38,814 bases of DNA from a virus, in IMG/VR virus record IMGVR_UViG_3300020370_000015, positions 1-38,814 of that record, one strand, 5' to 3'. The notes under the pieces were generated by a model that saw only the letters and a program-made list of their open reading frames with translations, did not search any database and was not told the DNA's origin. This document shows, piece after piece, positions 539 to 38,814 of the stretch (positions are counted from its first letter, which is position 1; every line of letters starts with the position of its first letter). The position numbers and the translations under genes are program-made.

Positions 539-655
539 TTCAATGATGCCCGAGACCCCCCAGATTCAATGAATTTGCTATGTCTCGTCTGGAGGCGCTA
601 GGCACAAACATTCAATGAGGTATCCCCCCCGGCGATTCAATGAAACTTTCAATGA
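539..655 (+). repeat. Cluster of five TTCAATGA repeats (candidate iterons/operators)
   Basis: TTCAATGA occurs at 539-546, 565-572, 611-618, 636-643 and 648-655, all in the same orientation within 117 non-coding bases. The same 8-mer is scattered through the whole genome in both orientations, but the density here is the highest. Spacings are irregular (26, 46, 25 and 12 bases start to start), unlike regular plasmid iterons. The cluster sits between two divergent operons and next to a strongly strand-biased tract, so it could be an origin element or a multi-site operator. Confidence 0.85.
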
Positions 656-675
656 ACGCCAGACCCGGCGATGTG

Positions 676-840
676 CCCCGCCCCCTCCCCTGCGCCTCCC
701 GTATATCGCTGTTTTGGTGGGTTTGGTTCAACTGTTTTGGGCTGTTGGTGTGGGGGGTGAGGGTGTTTTTTTGTTGTTGTTGGTGTGTTGTGGGGGTGTT
801 GGGTTTGTTTGGGTGGTTACTGGTTGGGTGGGTGGTTGAG
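676..840. other. C-rich segment followed by a G/T-only tract
   Basis: Bases 676-700 contain 19 C in 25. From 721 to 840, 111 of 120 bases are G or T (5 A and 4 C by hand count), with several runs of three or more G separated by short T-rich loops, some spaced so that a G-quadruplex is possible on the plus strand. No convincing gene covers it. Such extreme strand asymmetry fits an origin, a transcription-linked R-loop site or a packaging/structural element; which of these is inference. Confidence 0.8.
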
Positions 841-845
841 CACAG

Positions 846-929
846 GTAGCCCCCTCTTTGGGGGACTACTGCGACTGGTTTGGAGCCTGTGGCGTCGCTT
901 GTGTAGCCAACAGGGGATTATTCTGTTGG
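846..929. other. Two stem-loops in the non-coding divergent region
   Basis: GTAG-CCCCC (846-854) pairs with GGGGG-A-CTAC (860-869) around a TCTTT loop, giving 9 base pairs with one bulged A. CCAACAG (907-913) pairs with CTGTTGG (923-929) around a 9-base loop. Neither is followed by a T run, so they are not typical terminators. They could be part of a structured RNA or an origin. I tested the area for a tRNA cloverleaf and did not find one. Confidence 0.55.
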
Positions 930-1078
930 AAGGCCGGGGTGTGATTGGCCGATTGTTTGTGTACTTTCCGGGCTTCCCTTGACAAGTACTCGGTTGCAAT
1001 CTCGGATCTGTGCTTTGAACGTCCTTGCTTGTGTGTTCACGGGGACGTTGGGGGGTTGCCCCTTTGACGGGCGACTCT

Positions 1079-1113
1079 CCCCCCGGTTCCGATCTCTCGG
1101 GGGGGCGGTTTTT
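1079..1113 (+). terminator. Possible terminator-like hairpin ahead of the late genes
   Basis: CCCCCC (1079-1084) can pair with the G run at 1099-1105 across a 14-base loop, followed by CGG and TTTTT (1109-1113). The stem is only C/G runs and there is no clear transcript to end here, so the assignment is weak. It could instead be the 5' structure of the late transcript. From here to the first gene at 1224 I see no convincing promoter; a TTGACT at 1178-1183 lacks a partner -10 at a usual distance. Confidence 0.3.
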
Positions 1114-1223
1114 CACCGGACAACCCTATTTTCCCTTGGGTCGGGGCCACTCTCTCGTGGTGTCTTCGTTTCCGTTTTTGACTATAGCAGATCGTTTTTT
1201 GGTTGTGGTGTTATTGTGGTAGT

Positions 1224-6193: not shown

Positions 6194-6558
6194 TGGCTAG
6201 AGCAAGACGACCAGAACTTAAAGGACTTCCTTACGGTCAAAAACAAGCAGCAGAAGAATCTATGGCTGCTGTCCCAATGGCTGACGAAGATTACGACCGA
6301 CCAGAACCTCCTCCTCGGGCAGTTCCGGGTCAAGCTGGCAGTCCTTTACGGTCTACGTCTTTGCCGGGTGAAAACATTATGACGCCCATAAACGGGAATC
6401 AGCCTTCAATGCTGCAAAGCGAAGAAATGGATTACAGCAAATACGAACAGTATTTACCAGCCATTGAAGAACTTGCTTCAGTTAATGGGGCAAGCCGAGA
6501 CATGATTATGTTTGCCAAACGTCTTCGTCTTGCAATTAACGCAAACAAGAGGACGTAA
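6193..6558 (+). CDS. Hypothetical protein between portal and ejection protein (121 aa)
   Basis: Starts at the ATG of the TAATG that ends the portal gene. The first 75 residues are Pro-rich and probably disordered; residues about 80-120 form a charged helical segment ending in basic residues. No family is recognised. Its position suggests a small virion or portal-associated protein. It ends in TAATG with the giant gene, so translation is coupled. Confidence 0.7.
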   Translation: MARARRPELKGLPYGQKQAAEESMAAVPMADEDYDRPEPPPRAVPGQAGSPLRSTSLPGENIMTPINGNQPSMLQSEEMDYSKYEQYLPAIEELASVNGASRDMIMFAKRLRLAINANKRT

Positions 6559-9500
6559 TGGTAGACATCGGCGGAGCCTTAAATCGCTTAGGAAGAATTG
6601 GTGGGGGCTTCATTGATGTAGTAGAAGCTCCAATCCAACTAACAATGGATCTTTTGTTAGCTCCTGTTCGAGAAGACGAATACGACGGAATCGCTGGCAC
6701 TCTTGTAGGCGCTGGCATGGACCGGTTCGGGCAAGCAATCGGTGGAGCATTCGGACCAGATAAAGGTCTTGGTGCAGCGTTTGGCGCAGTACCCGAAGAA
6801 TACCGTAAACCTTTTCGTCGGGCAGTTGATCCAGTTCTTGACGTACTCGACTGGACATACGACAACGTAACCGACCGAGCTTTAGCTACATCCTTTACAA
6901 TGGCACGAGTCAAAGCGCAACGATTCCTTGACGGTGACATCGGCGGATTACTTGATCTTGACGATTTTAGTTGGGCATGGGAAGTAGGCAAAAGCCGATC
7001 TGCCGGTCAAGCATGGGCAGTGTTACTTAACCCGTGGCTTGACATAACTGACCCCGAACAAGCACACGAATACATTCACTCTGAATGGGGCCAACTAATT
7101 AGCGGCACTTTTGACGCAATGGCTAACATTTGGCTTGACCCAGCAGACTTATTAGTAGGCAAAGTTGGGTTAGCTTCGCGTGCTGGCAAACTTGCGTTAG
7201 TTGCTAAAGGCGACGACGTAATAGACATGGGGACAGGAGTTCTCAGAGGTCAAAAAGGTGGGAAAGCTGCGTTAGAAGCTAGACGTGCTGTTTTGACTTA
7301 CGGCGACGGACGAGTCCCCAAACTATTTGGCAAACTCAATGAAGTCGAAAAAGCTCAGGTTAGGACAAACCGAATCAACAACGTTATAGGCGAAGTTGAT
7401 CCAACTACCGGTATGCGAACAGGTGGGTCAGCAAAATACATTAAGTTTGTTGACGATCTTTACCAAGTGTTAGAAGACACTGATGGTGCGTTTGGCACAG
7501 GAATGTCTGAAGGTTTCAGAACAACTGGTGTAATGGACAACTCTGATGACGTTGCTGCTATTTCTCGACGAACTGAAGTTATTAAAAAAGCTTTAGAAAA
7601 AGAAATACCGAAACGTCGTGGCGCTGACACAGATCGGTTGGCAGAAAAAGTTGCTTTTGCTAACTCCAGAGAAACATTAGAAAATGTTTTGCTTATGGAA
7701 CTGTGGGGACACGCTCCAACATGGGATGCAGCTTCTAAAGCGTATCGAACATATAAAGCATCTCTTGGAGAAGAAACAGCATACGGAGCTTCCCGACGAG
7801 CAGCGCAAACTGCTCGCACACAAGCAGACGAACTAAAAACTCAACTAAATGGACCTACGGAAGATTTAGGTTGGGAAACAATTGGAACTTCTAAAACAGG
7901 TGACGTTTACGTTGTCCAAGCAAATGACCCCCCAACGTTGCTTGTTGGAGGAAAACGCAAAGCTGTCAACGTAGGAGACAGAGTATTTCTTGATCCGGGC
8001 GTTCAATGGACAAACCAACGTAAAATTGCAACAGCAAAACTTCGCTTAGTTGACCGCATTGAAAAACTAACTAAAGAAGCTGTCAAAAACGAACGAGACA
8101 TGGTGCGTCGTGGAGCAAGAGCTTCTGCTGAAGCAGCCGACGCTGGGTTCCTTGTTGCAGCTATGGCTGACTTTAATTTCCGTGCCCGACGAGGAATAAT
8201 AGGCGAAGATGGTTCTTTGCTTGAATCAGGATTCCGTCTTGATCCGTATAAACAAGACGAGCTTTTCAATGGGCAAGCAGTCGTTGAAGGCGTAGGCGAC
8301 GTAAATCAAATGTCGTTAGTGGCGCTCATTGAACAAGGCGCTCGTGAAATGGTGGTAGCGCAACAAAAAGCATTACCAGAAATGGTTGCCACTGGTCCAG
8401 ACGTTACTTATCGCATGGGCGGAGTGGATGCTCTTGACCGATTTGTTCTTCCTAAAATGGATAGACAAATCCAAACTTTAATGAAAGCTGGGCAACCCGG
8501 TAGAGCCGAAACAGTAATGACTGCTTTTGGTAAACCAGTTCGTTTGTTCAAAGAGTTTCTGCCTCAACGGTGGATTAACTTCGCTGAAGATGCTTCAGCA
8601 ACAGATCAGTTTGACAGGATGTTGCGTCAAATTACGCGCCTCCACGAAAAACTCCCCGGCGATCTTGATGCTCTTTTAACTGAAGATCAACGTGCAGCTT
8701 TGCGTTTACAGTTCCAAACATCTGACAAAGTTGGCCGAGCCGCTTTATTTGATCGTACCGCTATGAGAGCGTACGAAGAAATTCTTAAACGGGCAGGCAT
8801 TACAGACGAACAAGCTCAACTAGTTATGGAGCGTATAAAGACGACGCAGAACGCTTTGACGGAAGTTAAAGATAAAACCACTAACTTCAAAACTAAAGAC
8901 GGCGATGTAGTAATTGTTAGTGCCCGAGATTATGAAAATGGTTCTGTTGTCGGTTCAATCTTGCCGTATACAAAACAACAAATGGCAAACGTAGCTTTAA
9001 TGCCACGATTTGATTTGCTTGTCAATGAAATTAACAAATACGCCCCCGGCATGAGATCTTCCACACGGCAAACAGTGTCAGCCACTATTGATACTGCCGA
9101 CAAACTTATGGCTCAAATAATGAAACATTGGCGAGCTTCAGCTTTGTTGCGTCCTGCGTGGGCAATGCGAGTTCTTCCAGATGAACTACTGCGAGCAATG
9201 TCAGTAGTCGGGCTTCTTGGTGTTGCTGGGGGTGTTGCTAGAGGAATGTCTGACATGCGTGTCGGTTTAATGGATCACATGAAAGGCATTGATTCTTTAC
9301 CGGGCACTCTTGAACAAATGGCTGAACATCCTTTGGTAAAGCCGTACATTGAAAGTTTGGGTAGAGAAGCAACAGCGTTAGAAATTGTTGCAGAAGCTAA
9401 CCGTAAGTTAGATCAAAAAGAAATCAACAAAATGATGACTCGCTCTATTGTGAGCGAAGACAAAACCCGCAGGTTTGGCAGAGCAAAGCGTACTTTAAGA

Positions 9501-12473
9501 CCAACAATGGTTGGGCTTGGAGCGTCAATTCTTTTGGGGCCGATGGGTGGCGCTGTTAGCGCAGGTCTTTATACCCGTATGGGGTACAAGACAGCGCAAC
9601 GACTTGCCCAAAAACAATTTGTTGGTGCTTACGGATCAGACATGCTTCGTTTAGCAGACAATTTGTTAGCTGAAGCAGCAGAAGCTAGTCCTGATGTAGC
9701 AAGACAGTTACGTCAAGCTAGCGATGACATTCTTACCCAATATAAAAATATTGACAAAGTTCGAAATGAACTTGGGTTGAACTTGACTGACAAAGTTGAT
9801 GAAGCTTTGACGTTGCAAGATCGTGTTGCAACTCAATTGCATGATCTAAAAGCTGGTCATATCCGAGTCGGGAACAGAGCAATTGATTCAGCTTTTGGGA
9901 CTAATGGTGCGTTGCGAGAAATAAACACTAGAGCAGCTTCAGCTTCCCGAGCTACAGCAAATCTTATGGGCTTTACCCACAAATCAATGGAAACGAAATG
10001 GAATGAGTTAGAAGAAGCGTCAACAATGGCTGGGTCTAATCCGGGTCTTTGGGACAAATTCGTAAATCAACAATTAAGTGGTTTCGGCACAGGACGCACT
10101 ATTCGAACTGCTGAAGAAAAAGCAATGGTGGCGGAAAGACTTGGCATTGAAGTTGATGATGTAACAAGTGAAGTTGTTGTTGCTCATAATGAATGGACTC
10201 GTCAAATTTGGGAACCAGCGTCAGAAAGCCCCGGAATGTTTGGGCCTCCAGCACGCACAGAAGATCAAATTGTTGACGATTTGCTTGATTGGATTAACTC
10301 GCGAGAAGCGGCTCCTCTTAGAGCCAATCTTCCGTGGATGGCAAACAGAGAAAACATTGTCACAATGCGAGGAACAATTAACAAGTTGTTGCCAGATCAA
10401 CCTGAACTTGTTGATTTGCGTATATCAATAGGAGAAGGAAACCAAGTTAGTTACCAGCGAGATGTTGCTCGAAGGCTAGACAGTTTAGATCCTGAACGTA
10501 GAGCCGAAATCGAAGACTTAATGGAGAAAATCACAGAGAAAGACGTTAGAGCAGTTAATGGCACTCTTTGGGAAACTGTTTCTGATTTCTTTGGGTTTCA
10601 ATCGAAAAGCCTCAGCCAATTTGTTGAAAGAGCGTTTGCTTCAATAGGTGGATTGCCAACTGACAATCTTGTTCGTAACCCGTTTTTCCGTGCTCGATAT
10701 GAAGTTGCCTTTAGGCGTCGGGTTCAATCACAAATTGATTTAGAAACCGGTGATTTACGAATGACCGGCGAACAAATCAATGCAATGCAAAATGCTGCTC
10801 GGACACAAGCCCTCAAAGAAACCCGAGAACTGCTTTACGATCTAGCTGAAAACACTAGGTTCGGAGAAATCGTAGCTAACTTCATGCCGTTCTACGGTGC
10901 TTGGCAAGAAGTAATTAGTCGTTGGGTAGGCATAACAGTCGAAAATCCAGCGCACACTTTGCGAGTGTTGCGAGCATACCGTCGTGCAGGATCAGGCGAA
11001 GATGGCATTGTTAGCACTTACAAAGACGACGACGACAACGAATACTGGGTATTTACTCCACCAGAAAGTCTGCGAGATGGATTGCTCGGCAAGGTTTTCA
11101 ATGGAGGAGCCATTCAAGATTTAGCTGGAGTTCCATTGAGATTCTCTAAATCTTCAGCGAACATGCTTTCCCAAGGGCTTCCCGGTTTCGGGCCGCTTGT
11201 TGGTATTCCAGTCAATGAAATGTTAATGAAACGCCCTGACCTTGAAGATGCAATGAAAATTGTTCTCCCGTTTGGGGTTCAATCAGGCGAAAGCGCTATT
11301 TGGCGTGGCTTTGGAGCAGTATCTCCAGCGTGGGCAAGACGATTGAAATCTTACTTGTCTGAAGATGAGTCTTATCTTTCAATGCAGCAAATGATTTTGC
11401 GAGACACATTGCAACAAATGGAGTTACGCAATGATGAATTTGATTTCAATAACCCTGAAGATGTCAATGAACTATTGAAAGAAATCGAAGAAAAAGCTAC
11501 AAACATTTGGATTGTCCGAGGAGTTGCAGCGTTAGTTGCTCCTATCCAACCGCTGCCTAGCTCTCCATTCCAAGCGCAAATAGACAAGTACCGTAAACTT
11601 CAACTAGCTGACCCTGAGTCTTTGATTAATGGGAAAGGCGAAATCAGTTCTGCTGACGAAATCTTCCTCGAAGAAGAAGGCGACGAGTTCTTCTATCTAA
11701 CTGCCCGGTTTACTCGCAACAACACAGGTATTCCAGCGACAATAGAAGGATACGAGTCAAGCAAACGACACGCTGATCTTATAGCTGCACATCCACGATA
11801 CGGACGTTTAATCATTGGAGCAGAAGCAGGAGGAAGTTCAGAGTTCTCTAACGCTGCTTACCGGATTCAACAAACAACAGAAGTTGCTCCGGGTTCAGAC
11901 ATTATGTTCCGTGAACGTTTAGGTTTGAAAGAAACTGCTGAACAAGTCGAAATAGCTAACGGTTGGCAGGAATACCGTAACTTTATGGACATGGTAGCTA
12001 TTGAAGTTTCAAAAGCTGGTTGTGTTTCAATCAATGACCCAGCATGTAAATGGCTTCGTGAACTTAAAGGCGATTACATATTCGAGTTAGGCCAAAGCAA
12101 TAAGCTTTGGTTTGAGGATTACAGGTTGCGTGACTCGGCAGTAAACCAAGCCGAAAACATGGCTGTGTTCCGCAAACTTATTGCTGACCCAGTAATTGGT
12201 CAACGTAGCGACATCCAGAAACTTGCAGAGTATGTCAGAACTCGGGACGCATTTGCTGAAGAACTGTTTGTTCTAGACAGAGAAGGCGGTTCGTCTTCGT
12301 TGTTCTCTCGTTCTAATGAATGGCTGCTTTCAATGTGGGATGATTACAAAGAAGAATTTTTATTAGCGCCGGTAACAGCAAATCTGCGACAATTTGTTGA
12401 GTTTGATTCTCTTGCTATTGAGTCATGGCCGGTGGAACTACAACGACTACAACGTGAAGTGGTGCAATCATAA
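6558..12473 (+). CDS. Giant internal virion protein, probable DNA-ejection protein (1971 aa)
   Basis: A single 1971-codon gene takes up about 15% of the genome. It is largely helical and charged, with Gly/Ala-rich hydrophobic stretches near residues 870-900 and 980-1010 and an aromatic segment near 1440-1465 that could insert in a membrane. Short-tailed phages carry large internal proteins (the T7 gp16 or P22 ejection proteins) that leave the head and build a channel through the cell envelope; size, position after the portal and hydrophobic patches fit this role. I see no clear lysozyme or protease motif. Homology to T7 gp16 is not claimed. There is no tape-measure-like coiled-coil repeat. 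Confidence 0.72.
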   Translation: MVDIGGALNRLGRIGGGFIDVVEAPIQLTMDLLLAPVREDEYDGIAGTLVGAGMDRFGQAIGGAFGPDKGLGAAFGAVPEEYRKPFRRAVDPVLDVLDWTYDNVTDRALATSFTMARVKAQRFLDGDIGGLLDLDDFSWAWEVGKSRSAGQAWAVLLNPWLDITDPEQAHEYIHSEWGQLISGTFDAMANIWLDPADLLVGKVGLASRAGKLALVAKGDDVIDMGTGVLRGQKGGKAALEARRAVLTYGDGRVPKLFGKLNEVEKAQVRTNRINNVIGEVDPTTGMRTGGSAKYIKFVDDLYQVLEDTDGAFGTGMSEGFRTTGVMDNSDDVAAISRRTEVIKKALEKEIPKRRGADTDRLAEKVAFANSRETLENVLLMELWGHAPTWDAASKAYRTYKASLGEETAYGASRRAAQTARTQADELKTQLNGPTEDLGWETIGTSKTGDVYVVQANDPPTLLVGGKRKAVNVGDRVFLDPGVQWTNQRKIATAKLRLVDRIEKLTKEAVKNERDMVRRGARASAEAADAGFLVAAMADFNFRARRGIIGEDGSLLESGFRLDPYKQDELFNGQAVVEGVGDVNQMSLVALIEQGAREMVVAQQKALPEMVATGPDVTYRMGGVDALDRFVLPKMDRQIQTLMKAGQPGRAETVMTAFGKPVRLFKEFLPQRWINFAEDASATDQFDRMLRQITRLHEKLPGDLDALLTEDQRAALRLQFQTSDKVGRAALFDRTAMRAYEEILKRAGITDEQAQLVMERIKTTQNALTEVKDKTTNFKTKDGDVVIVSARDYENGSVVGSILPYTKQQMANVALMPRFDLLVNEINKYAPGMRSSTRQTVSATIDTADKLMAQIMKHWRASALLRPAWAMRVLPDELLRAMSVVGLLGVAGGVARGMSDMRVGLMDHMKGIDSLPGTLEQMAEHPLVKPYIESLGREATALEIVAEANRKLDQKEINKMMTRSIVSEDKTRRFGRAKRTLRPTMVGLGASILLGPMGGAVSAGLYTRMGYKTAQRLAQKQFVGAYGSDMLRLADNLLAEAAEASPDVARQLRQASDDILTQYKNIDKVRNELGLNLTDKVDEALTLQDRVATQLHDLKAGHIRVGNRAIDSAFGTNGALREINTRAASASRATANLMGFTHKSMETKWNELEEASTMAGSNPGLWDKFVNQQLSGFGTGRTIRTAEEKAMVAERLGIEVDDVTSEVVVAHNEWTRQIWEPASESPGMFGPPARTEDQIVDDLLDWINSREAAPLRANLPWMANRENIVTMRGTINKLLPDQPELVDLRISIGEGNQVSYQRDVARRLDSLDPERRAEIEDLMEKITEKDVRAVNGTLWETVSDFFGFQSKSLSQFVERAFASIGGLPTDNLVRNPFFRARYEVAFRRRVQSQIDLETGDLRMTGEQINAMQNAARTQALKETRELLYDLAENTRFGEIVANFMPFYGAWQEVISRWVGITVENPAHTLRVLRAYRRAGSGEDGIVSTYKDDDDNEYWVFTPPESLRDGLLGKVFNGGAIQDLAGVPLRFSKSSANMLSQGLPGFGPLVGIPVNEMLMKRPDLEDAMKIVLPFGVQSGESAIWRGFGAVSPAWARRLKSYLSEDESYLSMQQMILRDTLQQMELRNDEFDFNNPEDVNELLKEIEEKATNIWIVRGVAALVAPIQPLPSSPFQAQIDKYRKLQLADPESLINGKGEISSADEIFLEEEGDEFFYLTARFTRNNTGIPATIEGYESSKRHADLIAAHPRYGRLIIGAEAGGSSEFSNAAYRIQQTTEVAPGSDIMFRERLGLKETAEQVEIANGWQEYRNFMDMVAIEVSKAGCVSINDPACKWLRELKGDYIFELGQSNKLWFEDYRLRDSAVNQAENMAVFRKLIADPVIGQRSDIQKLAEYVRTRDAFAEELFVLDREGGSSSLFSRSNEWLLSMWDDYKEEFLLAPVTANLRQFVEFDSLAIESWPVELQRLQREVVQS

Positions 12474-16621: not shown

Positions 16622-16675
16622 TCATTGAACTATTGACTTTTTCATTGAATTCTTTGTATTCTTTCATTCATTGAT
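16622..16675 (+). promoter_or_regulatory. Promoter for scaffold/capsid with embedded TCATTGAA operators
   Basis: TTGACT (16633-16638), an 18-base spacer and TATTCT (16657-16662) make a credible sigma-70-type promoter. One TCATTGAA (16622-16629) abuts the -35 from upstream, a second (16642-16649) lies inside the spacer, and a one-mismatch copy TCATTGAT (16668-16675) follows the -10. Another near copy (TTCAATGC) occurs about 25 bases further on. The layout is what one expects of an operator that controls the promoter. The rest of the gap to 16761 shows no gene. Confidence 0.55.
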
Positions 16676-16760
16676 CGTCCACCACTGGTGTCTAGAGGCG
16701 TTCAATGCCCCTCCATTTCGGTACCACCGCTGGAATGCGTACAGGTTAGGTGAGTGACAT

Positions 16761-17240
16761 ATGACAGAAAATGATTCCACTGGATACAGTGGCGAAGATT
16801 CTGCCAGTTCATCCGAATCGAAACCCAACTGGCGTCGTGATTTGGAAAGTCGATTGAAAGAAGCTGAGGCTCGTGCTTCAGATGCTGAAAATCGGGTTTC
16901 TAGTTATGAACGTCGGGATACGTTTAGGTCAGCAGGGCTTGATCCTGATGACGCTCGGGTTAAGTATTTTGTAAAGGCATATGATGGGGAAATGGATGCG
17001 GAAGCTATCCGCCAAGAAGCGGCAGCAGCCGGGTTCATTGGAGCAGATGCTTCAGCAGCTAGCTCCTCCCCTGCCATTGAAAATGCAATCCAAGCAGAAG
17101 AACGTATTACGGCAGCCGGGGAAGGTGGAGAACCGGTAACTCAATCTGACCTTGACGCTCGAATCAGGGCGACAACTTCAGAAGATGAACTCCGTTCTTT
17201 AATGGAGTCAGAGGGTTACTTGTGGGGAGCTTCGCAGTAA
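16761..17240 (+). CDS. Capsid scaffolding protein
   Basis: 159 residues. Typical scaffold composition: a Ser/Glu-rich disordered N-terminus, a Glu/Ala/Arg coiled coil (residues about 25-55), an Ala/Ser/Glu-rich middle and a helical C-terminal segment that would bind the coat protein. It lies directly before the major capsid gene, its usual place. The ATG at 16761 is preceded by AGGTGAG. Scaffolds direct prohead assembly and leave before or during packaging. Sequence family is not recognised in detail; position and composition carry the call. Confidence 0.82.
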   Translation: MTENDSTGYSGEDSASSSESKPNWRRDLESRLKEAEARASDAENRVSSYERRDTFRSAGLDPDDARVKYFVKAYDGEMDAEAIRQEAAAAGFIGADASAASSSPAIENAIQAEERITAAGEGGEPVTQSDLDARIRATTSEDELRSLMESEGYLWGASQ

Positions 17241-29810: not shown

Positions 29811-30131
29811 TCAGCTTGTCGCCTCGTTACGAAGAATAGCACGCATTTCTGCGAGGTGTTGCATAGCTGTTTCTCTAGACGCTTTAGGTGCAGGCAACTG
29901 ATTCCGGTGTTCAGGGAGCGGCGTCTTTGCTCTGTAGTGGCGCCTGTATTGCGCGAACGAAGGCCATTCATTCGTCTCGTCAGCGAGTGCGTGCAATGCA
30001 CGTTCCGCTGTTTCGTAATCGCAACCTTGTAGTTCGTTCTTCCACAACTGCAACGTGCCATCAGGGATGGTGTACTTCCACCAAAGCTGGGTCATTAAAA
30101 CCAGAAGCTGTTTAGCTTGTTCGTTATTCAT
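29811..30131 (-). CDS. Putative helicase loader (G39P-like, 106 aa)
   Basis: The ATG at 30131 is preferred over upstream 30164 because it overlaps the upstream stop by 8 bases, as elsewhere in this operon. The product begins MNNEQAKQLLVLMTQLW and contains LWKNELQGCDYETAERALHA with WPSFAQYRRHY, the helical pattern of the SPP1 G39P-type N-terminal domain, where the protein loads the replicative helicase. The C-terminal 40 residues are charged. Since no helicase or primase is seen, it would recruit the host DnaB. Assignment is by pattern; a profile search would decide. Confidence 0.5.
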   Translation of the reverse strand: MNNEQAKQLLVLMTQLWWKYTIPDGTLQLWKNELQGCDYETAERALHALADETNEWPSFAQYRRHYRAKTPLPEHRNQLPAPKASRETAMQHLAEMRAILRNEATS

Positions 30132-30306
30132 TGATTTCCTCTGTCCAACGGATTTGTACTCCACACCAATCAGGCAATTCTACCCACCGCACGTAAGGAT
30201 CTTTCGTGGGTACTTGGGTTCCTTCTAAATTAGCGTGTTCAATGAGATCAGCCAATGAAATCTCTATGACGTGAGTTCTCGTGGCGTAAGTGATCCTGTG
30301 TTTCAT
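30124..30306 (-). CDS. Hypothetical protein (60 aa)
   Basis: 60 residues, with overlaps of 8 bases downstream and 4 bases (ATGA) upstream. Alternating hydrophobic residues in the first half (HRITYATRTHVIEIS) and a Trp-rich acidic end suggest a small beta protein. No family recognised. Kept because both overlaps fit the operon and it has no overlap with another likely gene. Confidence 0.6.
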   Translation of the reverse strand: MKHRITYATRTHVIEISLADLIEHANLEGTQVPTKDPYVRWVELPDWCGVQIRWTEEINE

Positions 30307-31189: not shown

Positions 31190-31497
31190 TAGTCCAATTC
31201 AAATAGTGGTAGTTCTGGGTCGTCAAGGAAAAATCCAACGGCTGCTTGAATGACGTTGCTACGAAATGCCCAGAAAGGAATCTGATTTATCTCGTGAGGT
31301 GTCGCTGGATGATGTTTCATTGCATCGCAATAACAATCAAGTCGAAGCAATAGATCTGCGTGTAACCCCACGGAAACCATTTCAACATCTGCGGCTATGG
31401 CTACGCCGTCGCCGTTATCTTCTTCCATTACATCAATACTAGGGCATGGAGAGAGAACCGCATAACGAGATGCTCGGTCCTCCCTCCTGTCCCTCAT
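31189..31497 (-). CDS. Ribbon-helix-helix-like DNA-binding protein 2 (102 aa)
   Basis: ATG at 31497, overlapping the end of the smaller RHH gene by 4 bases. After an acidic stretch, residues about 40-95 read VEMVSVGLHADLLLRLDCYC, an insert, then FRSNVIQAAVGFFLDD: a strand, a helix, a turn and a helix as in CopG/MetJ-type proteins. An alternative start at an internal Met (near residue 24) would keep the domain. RHH dimers bind short direct repeats. It may regulate the early operon or bind the abundant 8-mer; both are inference. Confidence 0.65.
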   Translation of the reverse strand: MRDRREDRASRYAVLSPCPSIDVMEEDNGDGVAIAADVEMVSVGLHADLLLRLDCYCDAMKHHPATPHEINQIPFWAFRSNVIQAAVGFFLDDPELPLFELD

Positions 31498-31646
31498 GTG
31501 TACCGTTCCCTCAAAAGTTTTATTCCTTCGCGAATGATCCTGCTTTTACTTGTACCTTGTAAGCCAGCAAAAGCAGTGAGCCATTCATCGTCGGTAGAGG
31601 ATAAACGTATTGAAAGATGACGGTCGTTTGCGTCATTCGCCGTCAT
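31494..31646 (-). CDS. Ribbon-helix-helix-like DNA-binding protein 1 (50 aa)
   Basis: A 50-residue frame beginning 2 bases after the SSB stop and ending with an ATGA overlap into the next RHH gene. It reads RHLSIRLSSTDDEWLTAF, then GTSKSRIIREGIKLL: the arginine-rich strand, first helix, a GTSKSRI turn and second helix of a minimal CopG/Arc-type repressor. Strong sequence pattern and perfect spacing make it a real gene. The two adjacent RHH genes may form homo- or heterodimers. Confidence 0.78.
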   Translation of the reverse strand: MTANDANDRHLSIRLSSTDDEWLTAFAGLQGTSKSRIIREGIKLLRERYT

Positions 31647-31648
31647 CA

Positions 31649-32050
31649 CTAGAAGGGCTCCTCTCCAGTGAACGCTTCTTGGACAGCTTGAACTGCTTTC
31701 GTGTCTTCTCGTTTAGCGGCAGGGCCGTCACTGACAATTGGTTCGAACCGTATTGAAGGGCCAGCGTCATTGACCATGAAAACAGCTTTAGATCTTTTCT
31801 GTCCTTCTTTGGTTTCCCATTTCTCTTGAACAAGATAACCGTCGCTAATAATTCTCGTCCCTTTAGGGATCTCAGAAATGTTTTCTGCTAACGCTCCGAA
31901 ACATTTGCAATCAAAGAAAGATGTTTCTTTGTCGTCATCTCGGCCTCGGGTAACAGCAATACTGAATGTTGCCCAAGGTGTACCGCTCTTAGCGAAGCGT
32001 AGTTCTGGGGGCGCTGTTAGTCGGCCCACCATTGTTATGTTACTGCTCAT
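31649..32050 (-). CDS. ssb: Single-stranded DNA-binding protein
   Basis: 133 residues from the ATG at 32050, chosen because the OB-fold begins at once (MSSNITMVGRL); this start overlaps the upstream gene by 11 bases. The SSB signature is clear: LTAPPELRFAKSG, then TPWATFSIAVTR and ETSFFDCKCFG, and GTRIISDGYLVQEKWE. The short acidic tail ends in GEEPF, like the protein-interaction tip of bacterial SSB. It protects ssDNA in replication and recombination and could recruit host factors. Confidence 0.93.
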   Translation of the reverse strand: MSSNITMVGRLTAPPELRFAKSGTPWATFSIAVTRGRDDDKETSFFDCKCFGALAENISEIPKGTRIISDGYLVQEKWETKEGQKRSKAVFMVNDAGPSIRFEPIVSDGPAAKREDTKAVQAVQEAFTGEEPF

Positions 32051-35643: not shown

Positions 35644-36399
35644 TCAGAGTGCGTCAGCTTCTTTCATTAAATCTCTGTACTCTTGGCTTTCAAACCCGAC
35701 AGTTGCGAACATCAATGCGGCGTTGTTTGCTCGGGCTTGTTCTTTGAACAATTCCATAGCTTTTTCCATTGGCATTTCTGTAACGAGGTTAGGAGTCATT
35801 TCAACTCGGCCAGTTGTTTCTAAGGAATCAACAACGGTGCGAGCTTCTTCGACTGTCCACCAAGGAAAAAGTGGGTGTTCTTGAATAAAAGTCTTGTTGC
35901 TTTCGTCGTCAGTCATCCAAGCAGCGGTCTTAAGTTTTTCGTACGCTTCATAGGGGACACAAACGGTGTCGCCTTGAAAGCATCCCCAAATAATTACGTC
36001 GCCGTAAATATCTTGTTTGGCTAGCAGAGAAGCAAAAGGATTGAAGTGCTTTTCTAAGATGCGGCCTTCGTCGTCTATCCACATATCTAAACCAAGGTTT
36101 AGGTTAGGGGGACGGGTACCGTCTTCTTCGGTCCATCCGTAACTATTGCAGATTTCTTCGAAGTCGTCTTCAGGTAGCCAAGGCAACCCGTCTGACTCTG
36201 GCAAGAGTTGAACAACATCTACCGGGCCGCTGCTTCCGTAGTCGTGCGAACGTGAAGCCGCTAACAGTTGGCTGGCAGTCAGCGTGTCTTTTGCGTTGAC
36301 CAGCAAACCGATACCAGTAGTTGTGATGAATATGCCGAGTTGTTTTACATCTTCTCGCTTGATGTGAAATGCCCCGTTGGAGGGGTCCTGCTCTCTCAT
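35644..36399 (-). CDS. Hypothetical early protein with DUF3846-like domain (251 aa)
   Basis: The ATG at 36399 is chosen over 36474 because a complete promoter ends 7 bases before it. Residues about 88-140 (ICNSYGWTEEDGTRPPN, then MWIDDEGRILEKHFNPFASLL and YGDVIIWG) resemble the DUF3846 fold, a phage/plasmid domain of unknown function. The last 60 residues are helical and Glu-rich. It is the first gene of the minus-strand early block and probably transcribed first after infection. Function unknown; a host-takeover role is inference. Confidence 0.65.
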   Translation of the reverse strand: MREQDPSNGAFHIKREDVKQLGIFITTTGIGLLVNAKDTLTASQLLAASRSHDYGSSGPVDVVQLLPESDGLPWLPEDDFEEICNSYGWTEEDGTRPPNLNLGLDMWIDDEGRILEKHFNPFASLLAKQDIYGDVIIWGCFQGDTVCVPYEAYEKLKTAAWMTDDESNKTFIQEHPLFPWWTVEEARTVVDSLETTGRVEMTPNLVTEMPMEKAMELFKEQARANNAALMFATVGFESQEYRDLMKEADAL

Positions 36400-36435
36400 G
36401 TAATACATGGTAGCAGTGTGTGTGACATTTATCAA
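36400..36435 (-). promoter_or_regulatory. Leaderless promoter of the first early gene
   Basis: On the minus strand TTGATA (36435-36430), a 17-base spacer and TACCAT (36412-36407) lie 7 bases before the ATG at 36399, so the transcript would start at or near the ATG, typical of leaderless actinobacterial mRNA. TGTATTAC (36407-36400) overlaps the -10 edge and touches the start codon, as it does at 34518. The boxes are seen directly; activity is inferred. Confidence 0.6.
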
Positions 36436-36456
36436 ATGTTTTTGTTTTGGGTTGTT

Positions 36457-36473
36457 GCTCGCGAGTCTCGTCA
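36457..36473. repeat. 17-base repeat, copy B
   Basis: Identical to 34625-34641 (GCTCGCGAGTCTCGTCA), 22 bases upstream of the -35 box of the first early gene. A position directly upstream of a -35 fits an activator or repressor site. Confidence 0.8.
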
Positions 36474-36486
36474 AGAGAAGCGTGAT

Positions 36487-36540: not shown

Positions 36541-36624
36541 TCATTGAATCATTGAATCTAGTTCATTGAATCTGTGTGAGGGCATGAAGAAACCCGGCCC
36601 CTTTCGAAGCCGGGTTTCATTGAA
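36541..36624. repeat. Cluster of four TCATTGAA repeats
   Basis: TCATTGAA at 36541-36548, 36549-36556 (directly adjacent), 36563-36570 and 36617-36624, all in the same plus-strand orientation, plus a one-mismatch TGATTGAA shortly after. They flank a terminator in the 312-base gap between 36399 and 36712. The remainder of that gap up to 36711 contains no gene that I can support. Confidence 0.85.
36589..36618 (-). terminator. Terminator of the AAA+/partner operon
   Basis: GAAACCCGGC (36589-36598) pairs with GCCGGGTTTC (36609-36618), a perfect 10-bp stem with a 10-base loop. The stem itself starts and ends with A/T pairs; the minus-strand tail has only two T after the stem. It lies 94 bases downstream of the last gene of the leftward G+C-rich operon. 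Confidence 0.7.
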
Positions 36625-36711
36625 CTTTGATTGAAACTTTCTATCTGTTATCGATCACCGCCCACAGTGCCCAGTGTGTCAGGGCAATGAAAGCGGCCAC
36701 CGCTAGCGGAC

Positions 36712-37692: not shown

Positions 37693-38814
37693 CAGACCAA
37701 CTCCTTGATCCCGGAGGTGGTTAGTTGCTGCTCATTGAGCCGAGCTAGGAAAGTAATCTTTGCAGCGCTCTGCGTTGATTCTTCGGGGTCGGCTATCCAT
37801 CGGGCGCCGGCGATAACGTCACGCTGTCCGATGACTACCGGCAACTTGGAATCGTAGGCCGCTTGACGTGCTCGGTCTACCAGTGCCGCCCAGTCCCGGC
37901 CCTGCTCCTCGGTGCCTCCGTACTGGACACAATTGGCAGCGCCTAGGGCGGCCTCTAATTCAGTGTCCGGTAGCAGGTCATGAGTGTAAGCGAACCGGCT
38001 TATCGTTGCAGCGTCTAGAGCGTTGCGCCCTACATACATCCGGTCCGGTCCGGTTCCGAAAGTGTTAGCAGTTGCGACTACTAGACAATCGTCATGCTTC
38101 ACGACATCACCGTCCGGGAAGGGGTGAACTGATCCGGCGTCATCGGATAACAGTTTGTTGAGCACTACAAGCATGCCGGGGTGGCCGGCATCAACCTCAT
38201 CAAGTAAGAGAATGCCACCATTCTGATACCAGTCCCGAACCGGTGTTGATACATACTCTCCGTTGGTCGGTTGCTTGTATCCGAAGAACGCAGATGCCGT
38301 CATGGCCGCCCCCATTGAAACAGTGTGAAGCGCTAACCCCAGAGCCTCAGCAACCTGCTTGCAAAGGTAAGTCTTGCCGGTACCGGCCGGCCCTACCAGA
38401 TAGACGCCTAGACCCTCAGACTTGGCAACCTGCTTAAGAACCTCGTCAAAATCCTTGTGGAGTTTGTCCGTGTTCAATGACTGAATGGGCCGAGGTTCTT
38501 TCGTCACAATTTCGATCGTCTTCGGTCGGGTCTGAATGTTGGCAACGGCCTCGGCTAGCACGTCCCCGATAATCGATTGAAGCTCATCGGCAGATAATCC
38601 GATATCGGCTCGGTCGATCTGCTCATCGGCTATCTCTCTGACTCGCTGCTCTAGAGCATCTAGGGGACTTGGAGCGGCGGCCGGTTCTGCTGCTGCTGCT
38701 GCTGGCTCGGTCGGCTCGGCTGGCTCAGTTGATCCCGATACCGGCTCGGCTGGCTCGGTCGGCTCGGCTGGCTCGGTCGGCTCAGTCGATACCGGCTCTG
38801 ACGTCGCTCCGATG
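37692..38814 (-). CDS. CobS/MoxR-like AAA+ ATPase, C-terminal part (begins at 455)
   Basis: Open to the right window edge and in frame with 455-1. After the Pro/Glu linker and a helix comes the AAA+ domain: LVGPAGTGKT (Walker A), GILLLDEVD (Walker B), TANTFG (sensor 1) and DAATISRF, a probable arginine-finger region, then a helical lid. This is the MoxR/CobS class, which remodels protein complexes with a vWA partner; in cobalamin synthesis CobS inserts cobalt with CobN/CobT, but no such genes are here, so a cobalt role is not supported. An internal GTG at 38561 could start a short form without linker. G+C is higher than elsewhere (one sampled 60-base line 63%, versus 42% in a late-gene line). 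Confidence 0.9.
   Translation of the reverse strand, partial: IGATSEPVSTEPTEPAEPTEPAEPVSGSTEPAEPTEPAAAAAEPAAAPSPLDALEQRVREIADEQIDRADIGLSADELQSIIGDVLAEAVANIQTRPKTIEIVTKEPRPIQSLNTDKLHKDFDEVLKQVAKSEGLGVYLVGPAGTGKTYLCKQVAEALGLALHTVSMGAAMTASAFFGYKQPTNGEYVSTPVRDWYQNGGILLLDEVDAGHPGMLVVLNKLLSDDAGSVHPFPDGDVVKHDDCLVVATANTFGTGPDRMYVGRNALDAATISRFAYTHDLLPDTELEAALGAANCVQYGGTEEQGRDWAALVDRARQAAYDSKLPVVIGQRDVIAGARWIADPEESTQSAAKITFLARLNEQQLTTSGIKELV
38695..38814. repeat. Terminal redundancy, right copy (18 bases longer)
   Basis: Matches 1-102 with one extra 18-base unit encoding a six-residue EPAEPT-type repeat, so both versions keep the reading frame. Either the population contains two lengths of the linker, or the assembler collapsed or expanded a tandem repeat. 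Confidence 0.92.

Follow-up and report, generated by a model that had tools for sequence, protein, structure and literature searches.

A candidate RNA-type replication origin beside an operator-like array of a genome-wide DNA word in a putative actinophage

The window analysed here, from a marine bacterial virus, is the complete IMG/VR virus record IMGVR_UViG_3300020370_000015 (38,814 nucleotides; 38.8 kb). The ends of the record (1-102 and 38695-38814), both within one gene, share a 102-bp overlap with one 18-bp indel, which makes the genome a closed circle of ~38.7 kb. The indel corresponds to one TEPAEP-type repeat unit in the linker of an AAA+ ATPase gene, so the repeat number in this linker differs within the population or the assembly. 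Genes are arranged in two arms. The rightward genes (1224-29743) encode TerL, portal, capsid and tail; the leftward genes, which run from 455 round to 29811, have a CobS-like AAA+ ATPase, WhiB-like proteins and SSB among their products, and this arm also carries the genes for an Erf/Rad52-like annealing protein, a PD-(D/E)XK nuclease and a RusA-like resolvase. The presence of WhiB-like genes points to an actinobacterium as host. There are two of them in this one small phage genome (30303-30590 and 34766-35098), and one is short and divergent. A single protein of 1971 aa (6558-12473), encoded in the interval between portal and capsid, takes up ~15% of the genome. The pattern of a 117-aa early protein (29811-30164) is reminiscent of SPP1 G39P-type helicase loaders; Pfam and PHROGs scans with this protein gave nothing significant.

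The two arms are separated by a divergent intergenic region (456-1223), which is flanked on one side by the AAA+ ATPase gene of the leftward early arm (from 455, wrapping round to 37692) and on the other by the late arm, which runs rightward. A preliminary description of positions 539-840 had called this DNA non-coding and placed it at the divergence of two transcription units. Indeed, no genes were called between 455 (leftward) and ~1224 (rightward), and the longer ORFs within 455-1224 overlap a low-complexity tract. The left part of the region carries an operator-like cluster (539-655, plus strand) of five direct copies of the word TTCAATGA, at 539, 565, 611, 636 and 648, exactly as had been claimed. 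It is followed by a putative promoter (670-707, plus strand), for which relatives were compared by eye and which consists of the family-conserved GATGTGCC (670-677), a C-rich segment (676-700) and TATATC (702-707). The C-rich segment had been described with 19 C in 25 bases, and the richest 25-mer, 676-700, has this very number.

The adjoining G+T tract (709-840, plus strand; 92.4% G+T) has little RNA structure, and its composition is kept in relatives, many of which have a stretch of 100 nt with 94-99% G+T upstream of TerL. The earlier figure of 93% G+T over 120 bases was reproduced with 92.5% for 721-840 and 93.3% for the best 120-mer (710-829); no 120-mer exceeded 72.5% in 50 Markov-1 simulations, and none in the rest of the record exceeded 69%. 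The tract had also been regarded as easily melted or R-loop-forming. The second property fits it better: with 57 G and 54 T per 120 bases it is G-rich, and it is not an A+T-rich unwinding element. It has one G-quadruplex-like stretch (792-828). The sharp strand asymmetry at the junction of the C-rich segment and the tract, upstream of TerL, might also be that of a cos or packaging site. However, there is no accumulation of relatives' contig ends at the junction and the record of the window closes elsewhere, inside a gene, and we give this reading hardly any credence.

The label given to the locus in the preliminary description was that of a replication origin, with the cumulative GC skew of the circularised genome named as a check. 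The skew has its minimum at 700 and its maximum at 29963. The minimum shifts to 561 with 601-1200 masked, and in five of eight relatives it is found 0.25-0.57 kb upstream of an RNA hairpin that is described below. As the genes diverge at 456-1223, the skew minimum is consistent with an origin but is not independent proof of one.

The word TTCAATGA is by no means restricted to this locus. There are 38 copies in the genome where 2.2 are expected, a number reached in none of 100 shuffles, and they are distributed 19/19 over the strands; the shorter TTCAATG is found 82 times, on both strands, compared to 5.6 expected. Five TTCAATGA copies per 117 bp exceed even this raised genomic density (Poisson p = 1.5e-7). 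Noncoding DNA makes up 2.2 kb of the 38.8 kb and contains 14 of the 38 copies, and the 8-mers cluster ahead of transcription units. A second cluster on the minus strand (36541-36624), with four TTCAATGA sites and TTCAATCA at 36628, is located upstream of the gene 36474-35644, whose product (35644-36474, minus strand) is a clade-specific protein of 276 aa to which no function was assigned. Three intergenic TTCAATG sites (16622, 16642 and 16701; 16622-16707) precede the gene at 16761. The majority of the TTCAATG sites is intragenic (64 of 82) and since synonymous codon shuffling gives only 13.6 ± 3.4, amino-acid content is not the explanation.

Enrichment of TTCAATGA was seen in none of 31 relatives that had been chosen by their terminase (0-7 copies per record of 25-60 kb). 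The word is enriched in the contigs that are closest by capsid (L123-L127 and L132) and in L203, which belongs to one contig together with L127 and covers its early-gene end; L127 has 39 copies where 3.0 are expected and L203 has 36 where 1.5 are expected. L127 (91% identity) has kept 28 of 30 aligned sites, where 58% would be expected from all 7-mers (p = 2e-5), and L203 (86% identity) has kept 21 of 27, where 41% would be expected (p = 1e-4). Judged from these alignments, TTCAATG is a short DNA word that the nearest relative has conserved more than background would predict, and TTCAATGA looks like a dispersed operator, a word for the docking of a protein. A search of viral contigs for the TTCAATGA cluster returned loci without DNA similarity to the window, and when virus contigs were queried with the AAA+ protein, with the N-terminal part of it and with the 326-aa neighbour, no contig with a closely related origin flank came up.

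Comparison with related phages had also been named as a check in the preliminary description, and its outcome was divided: the G+T tract and the RNA are kept, but in several relatives the repeats are swapped for LexA-type boxes (CGAAC-N4-GTTCG). Nine relatives have one to four such boxes per region, and in L051, L052, L054, L059, L061, L062, L066 and L085 they occupy the slot of TTCAATGA upstream of the tract. Arrays of three to four boxes beside the G+T tract, upstream of TerL, as present in L054, L061, L062, L066 and L085, suggest that the phage switch of these five is under SOS control. The window has no CGAAC-N4-GTTCG box, and a LexA-controlled switch is not assigned to it. As the repeats differ among relatives, the left part is a control module that can be exchanged, and the conserved core consists of the tract and the RNA.

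This bears on the function first ascribed to the repeats, that of initiator sites. Direct repeats that adjoin a strand-biased tract in the skew minimum do recall a classical origin, in which TTCAATGA would be an iteron bound by a phage initiator beside a melted tract. We consider this very unlikely. The 38 copies belong to a genome-wide word that is not confined to the origin, the word is not enriched in most of the relatives that keep tract and RNA, some relatives have LexA-type boxes instead, and the adjoining tract is not A+T-rich. Moreover, no RepA-like or Rep-type initiator was found among the phage proteins scanned, and there is no conserved ORF in the region.

Which protein could read the word? 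Seven early genes are present in L203 yet missing from eight non-enriched relatives, and one of these encodes a ribbon-helix-helix protein of 51 aa (31494-31649, minus strand) that is 88% identical in L203. It matched a PHROG transcriptional repressor with an E value of 3e-4 and Pfam RHH_1 with an E value of 0.0098, the latter below the curated cut-off. Arrays of short sites are the typical targets of ribbon-helix-helix dimers, and TTCAWTGAA is an odd palindrome. From this, we infer that the 51-aa protein is the leading candidate for the regulator that binds TTCAATG. The word could also be an address for something other than a repressor, be it a parS-like partition site, a genome-condensing site or a recombination hotspot. 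Such a role would be in line with 82 7-mers on both strands that are mostly intragenic, far beyond the codon-shuffled number, and with sites kept in relatives beyond background; it does not account for the concentration of the 8-mers in noncoding DNA before transcription units, and neither ParA nor ParB (parABS) was found among the phage proteins scanned. We therefore regard it as unlikely and favour the repressor.

A repressor that reads many sites has precedent in the stoperators of cluster A phages (L5 gp71 type; PMC5712189, PMC9283540). As with TTCAATG, many short asymmetric sites are spread over one genome, they are clustered at the early promoter region, and the word changes between lineages. 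However, TTCAATG has 7-8 bp and the stoperator 13 bp, the 64 intragenic of the 82 TTCAATG sites and their two orientations contrast with stoperators that are mostly intergenic and one-way relative to transcription, and the candidate binder is of the ribbon-helix-helix type, whereas the stoperator repressor is a helix-turn-helix protein. Pfam and PHROGs scans of the early genes revealed no homologue of the cluster A repressor. Because it is shorter, largely intragenic and not one-directional, TTCAATG is not classed as a stoperator.

Downstream of the tract lies a covarying structured RNA (841-1165, plus strand) that the window has in common with RNA-based prophage origins. One of its hairpins, CCAACAG-GGGATTATT-CTGTTGG, is followed by AAGGCCGG (907-938, plus strand) and is the counterpart of the GGRATTACT hairpin in proven origins. 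The most conserved hairpin is GTTGCCC-CTTTGAC-GGGCGAC (1055-1075, plus strand), and by hand count a hairpin CCC-YTYTGAC-GGG is found upstream of TerL in 46 of the 52 relatives whose sequence extends at least 1.5 kb in that direction. RNAalifold predicted 18 pairs from 27 relatives, 13 of which have changed on both sides. The 3′ domain with its two hairpins is 96% paired and has 41 double-change cells compared to 13.6 in shuffles; its score was reached by none of 500 shuffles and by no slid control. The fold is more stable on the forward strand, where G-U pairs outnumber A-C pairs in the marine groups; this comparison is confounded by the strand itself being G/T-rich, and in cluster A it favoured neither strand. 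The element matched no Rfam family, including 6S, and a search for tRNA and tmRNA gave nothing. The Ms1/6S RNAs are structured actinobacterial RNAs as well. Ms1 folds into a single long hairpin, interrupted by a central bubble, and adjoins a HAD hydrolase gene (PMC4191392, PMC9130861), whereas the RNA of the window is a series of short hairpins; an identity with Ms1/6S was rejected on the published structure and gene context.

A 20-base match connected the element to Mycobacterium and Gordonia phages, in which the matching DNA is noncoding. A covariance model (R2) made from 25 marine sequences, with the subtype of the window and all mycobacteriophages left out, detected the window at 1052-1105 (E = 2e-8) and the origins of the mycobacteriophages LadyBird (2e-9), RedRock (5e-8) and Alma (3e-4). 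Further matches were to Rahalelujah (4e-7), the A4 phage LeoAvram (6e-7) and Daredevil and Coeur (~4e-4), and the best E value among unrelated control loci was 0.45. These matches argue firmly for homology of the 3′ domain to the cluster A origin RNA. A model of the 5′ domain made from cluster A sequences (R1) matched Daredevil with an E value of 4e-22 and the window weakly, at the expected place (E = 0.01 in 768 nt). In an alignment (A2), a hairpin with the loop GGRATTANT, then AGGCCGG, is common to both groups, and homology of the 5′ domain, in diverged form, is thereby supported.

To our knowledge, RNA-based prophage origins have so far been described only in cluster A mycobacteriophages. 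Regions of ~600 bp with the ori of Alma, LadyBird, RedRock or Gladiator suffice for plasmid replication with no protein required, and deletion of ori in Alma and LadyBird destabilises the lysogens (Wetzel et al. 2020, PMC7157519). Alma without ori shows normal lytic growth (PMC7157519), and whatever role there is may thus be confined to the prophage state. The searched text of that paper gives no RNA structure (PMC7157519). The structured RNA covers much of these ~600-bp fragments; Alma 35, a cluster A ORF that overlaps the element, occurs in integrating phages too (PMC7157519). Like the cluster A origins, the element in the window is intergenic with no protein initiator found, and its two signature hairpins follow one another as they do in those origins, with similar spacing. 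It differs in that it lies between divergent early and late arms and not upstream of parA, in a genome in which parABS was not found, in the long G+T tract that precedes it and is absent from cluster A origins, and in a strongly diverged 5′ domain. By homology, use of the element as an origin in this phage is plausible. The origin label of the preliminary description is thus backed by the skew minimum at 700 and the homologous RNA downstream, but not its mechanism: the origin would work through RNA rather than iterons, and the conserved core, 841-1165, lies outside 539-840.

The gene neighbourhood of the element varies. In cluster A, it is directly upstream of parA in 14 of the 14 parABS phages examined that carry it; in the Gordonia phage Daredevil and in the marine phages it heads the late operon, upstream of TerL. 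In integrating A4 phages (LeoAvram, L226 2450-2560, and 157 related records) the hairpin element is located close to the early promoter, within noncoding DNA at the right end, and on the strand opposite to early transcription. Because it is also present in these integrating phages, the RNA is not exclusive to extrachromosomal prophages. The main rival to the origin reading is therefore a phage RNA that regulates the late or the early operon, such as a leader, an antitermination element or a host-takeover RNA, and that has another job inside the mycobacteriophage origins. In addition to the position at the head of the late operon, this is favoured by the fact that the right-end noncoding region of A4 phages is where cluster A makes abundant early RNA from Pleft and that part of this region is undeletable in L5 (PMC5712189). 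On the other hand, the element of the parABS phages is within ~600-bp fragments that replicate autonomously with no ORF needed, and the skew minimum falls at the region. We regard a purely regulatory role as possible but somewhat unlikely.

We modelled the strand opposite to that of the RNA which has been reported from lysogens (PMC7157519), and the leftward early RNA of cluster A is likewise on that other strand. Either there is an antisense pair, as is the case for ColE1, or it is the other strand that functions. Rhodococcus and Nocardia genomes (L250 6535-6710, L257, L261 and L253) also have the structured RNA. Its neighbours in L250 are an ABC-F ATPase gene, a cytochrome oxidase assembly-like gene and a tRNA, with no obvious phage genes in the part viewed. 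A conserved housekeeping RNA of the host was rejected, as only 2 of 60 further genomes from the family to which one carrier belongs have the RNA; a sporadic spread in actinobacterial genomes is as expected for a mobile element. Plasmid records gave no match.

Taken together, we lean towards the view that 456-1223 is an actinophage origin and control region, probably made up of an RNA-type origin and an operator array to its left. From the sites, the tract and the folded RNA we infer a promoter, an R-loop, a priming event and a repressor that would act as follows. A rightward promoter near 670-710 would give rise to a transcript that has the unstructured G/U tract first and then the folded RNA. 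The G/U tract would stay hybridised to the C/A template, and the RNA of this R-loop, after processing, would prime DNA synthesis by host enzymes, without a phage initiator protein. The TTCAATGA array (539-655) would serve to switch off the leftward early promoter, and perhaps the rightward one too, and a ribbon-helix-helix repressor made by the phage would recognise the 38 exact sites (82 TTCAATG). R-loop primed origins such as that of ColE1 with its RNA II offer an analogy, as they also combine a G-rich transcribed tract with a folded RNA and have no initiator protein. In the window, however, the tract is 5′ and the structure 3′; this order is opposite to that of ColE1, and hence the principle alone is borrowed.

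It is tempting to speculate, though only tentatively, that marine, Mycobacterium and Gordonia phages have a widespread and as yet uncatalogued family of origin RNAs that confers protein-free replication at the junction of early and late genes and that is coupled here to TTCAATG and a tiny ribbon-helix-helix repressor. A covarying structure common to uncultured marine actinophages and proven origins is a testable model of the functional parts, and the covariance model is a tool to search for replicons missed by gene-based annotation. Such elements may also serve as plasmid origins for actinobacteria for which few tools are available. The clade-limited 7-mer, kept beyond background in coding sequence, clearly exemplifies a phage genome that has been shaped to fit one DNA-binding word, and with TTCAATG the origin and turnover of stoperator-like systems become directly testable.
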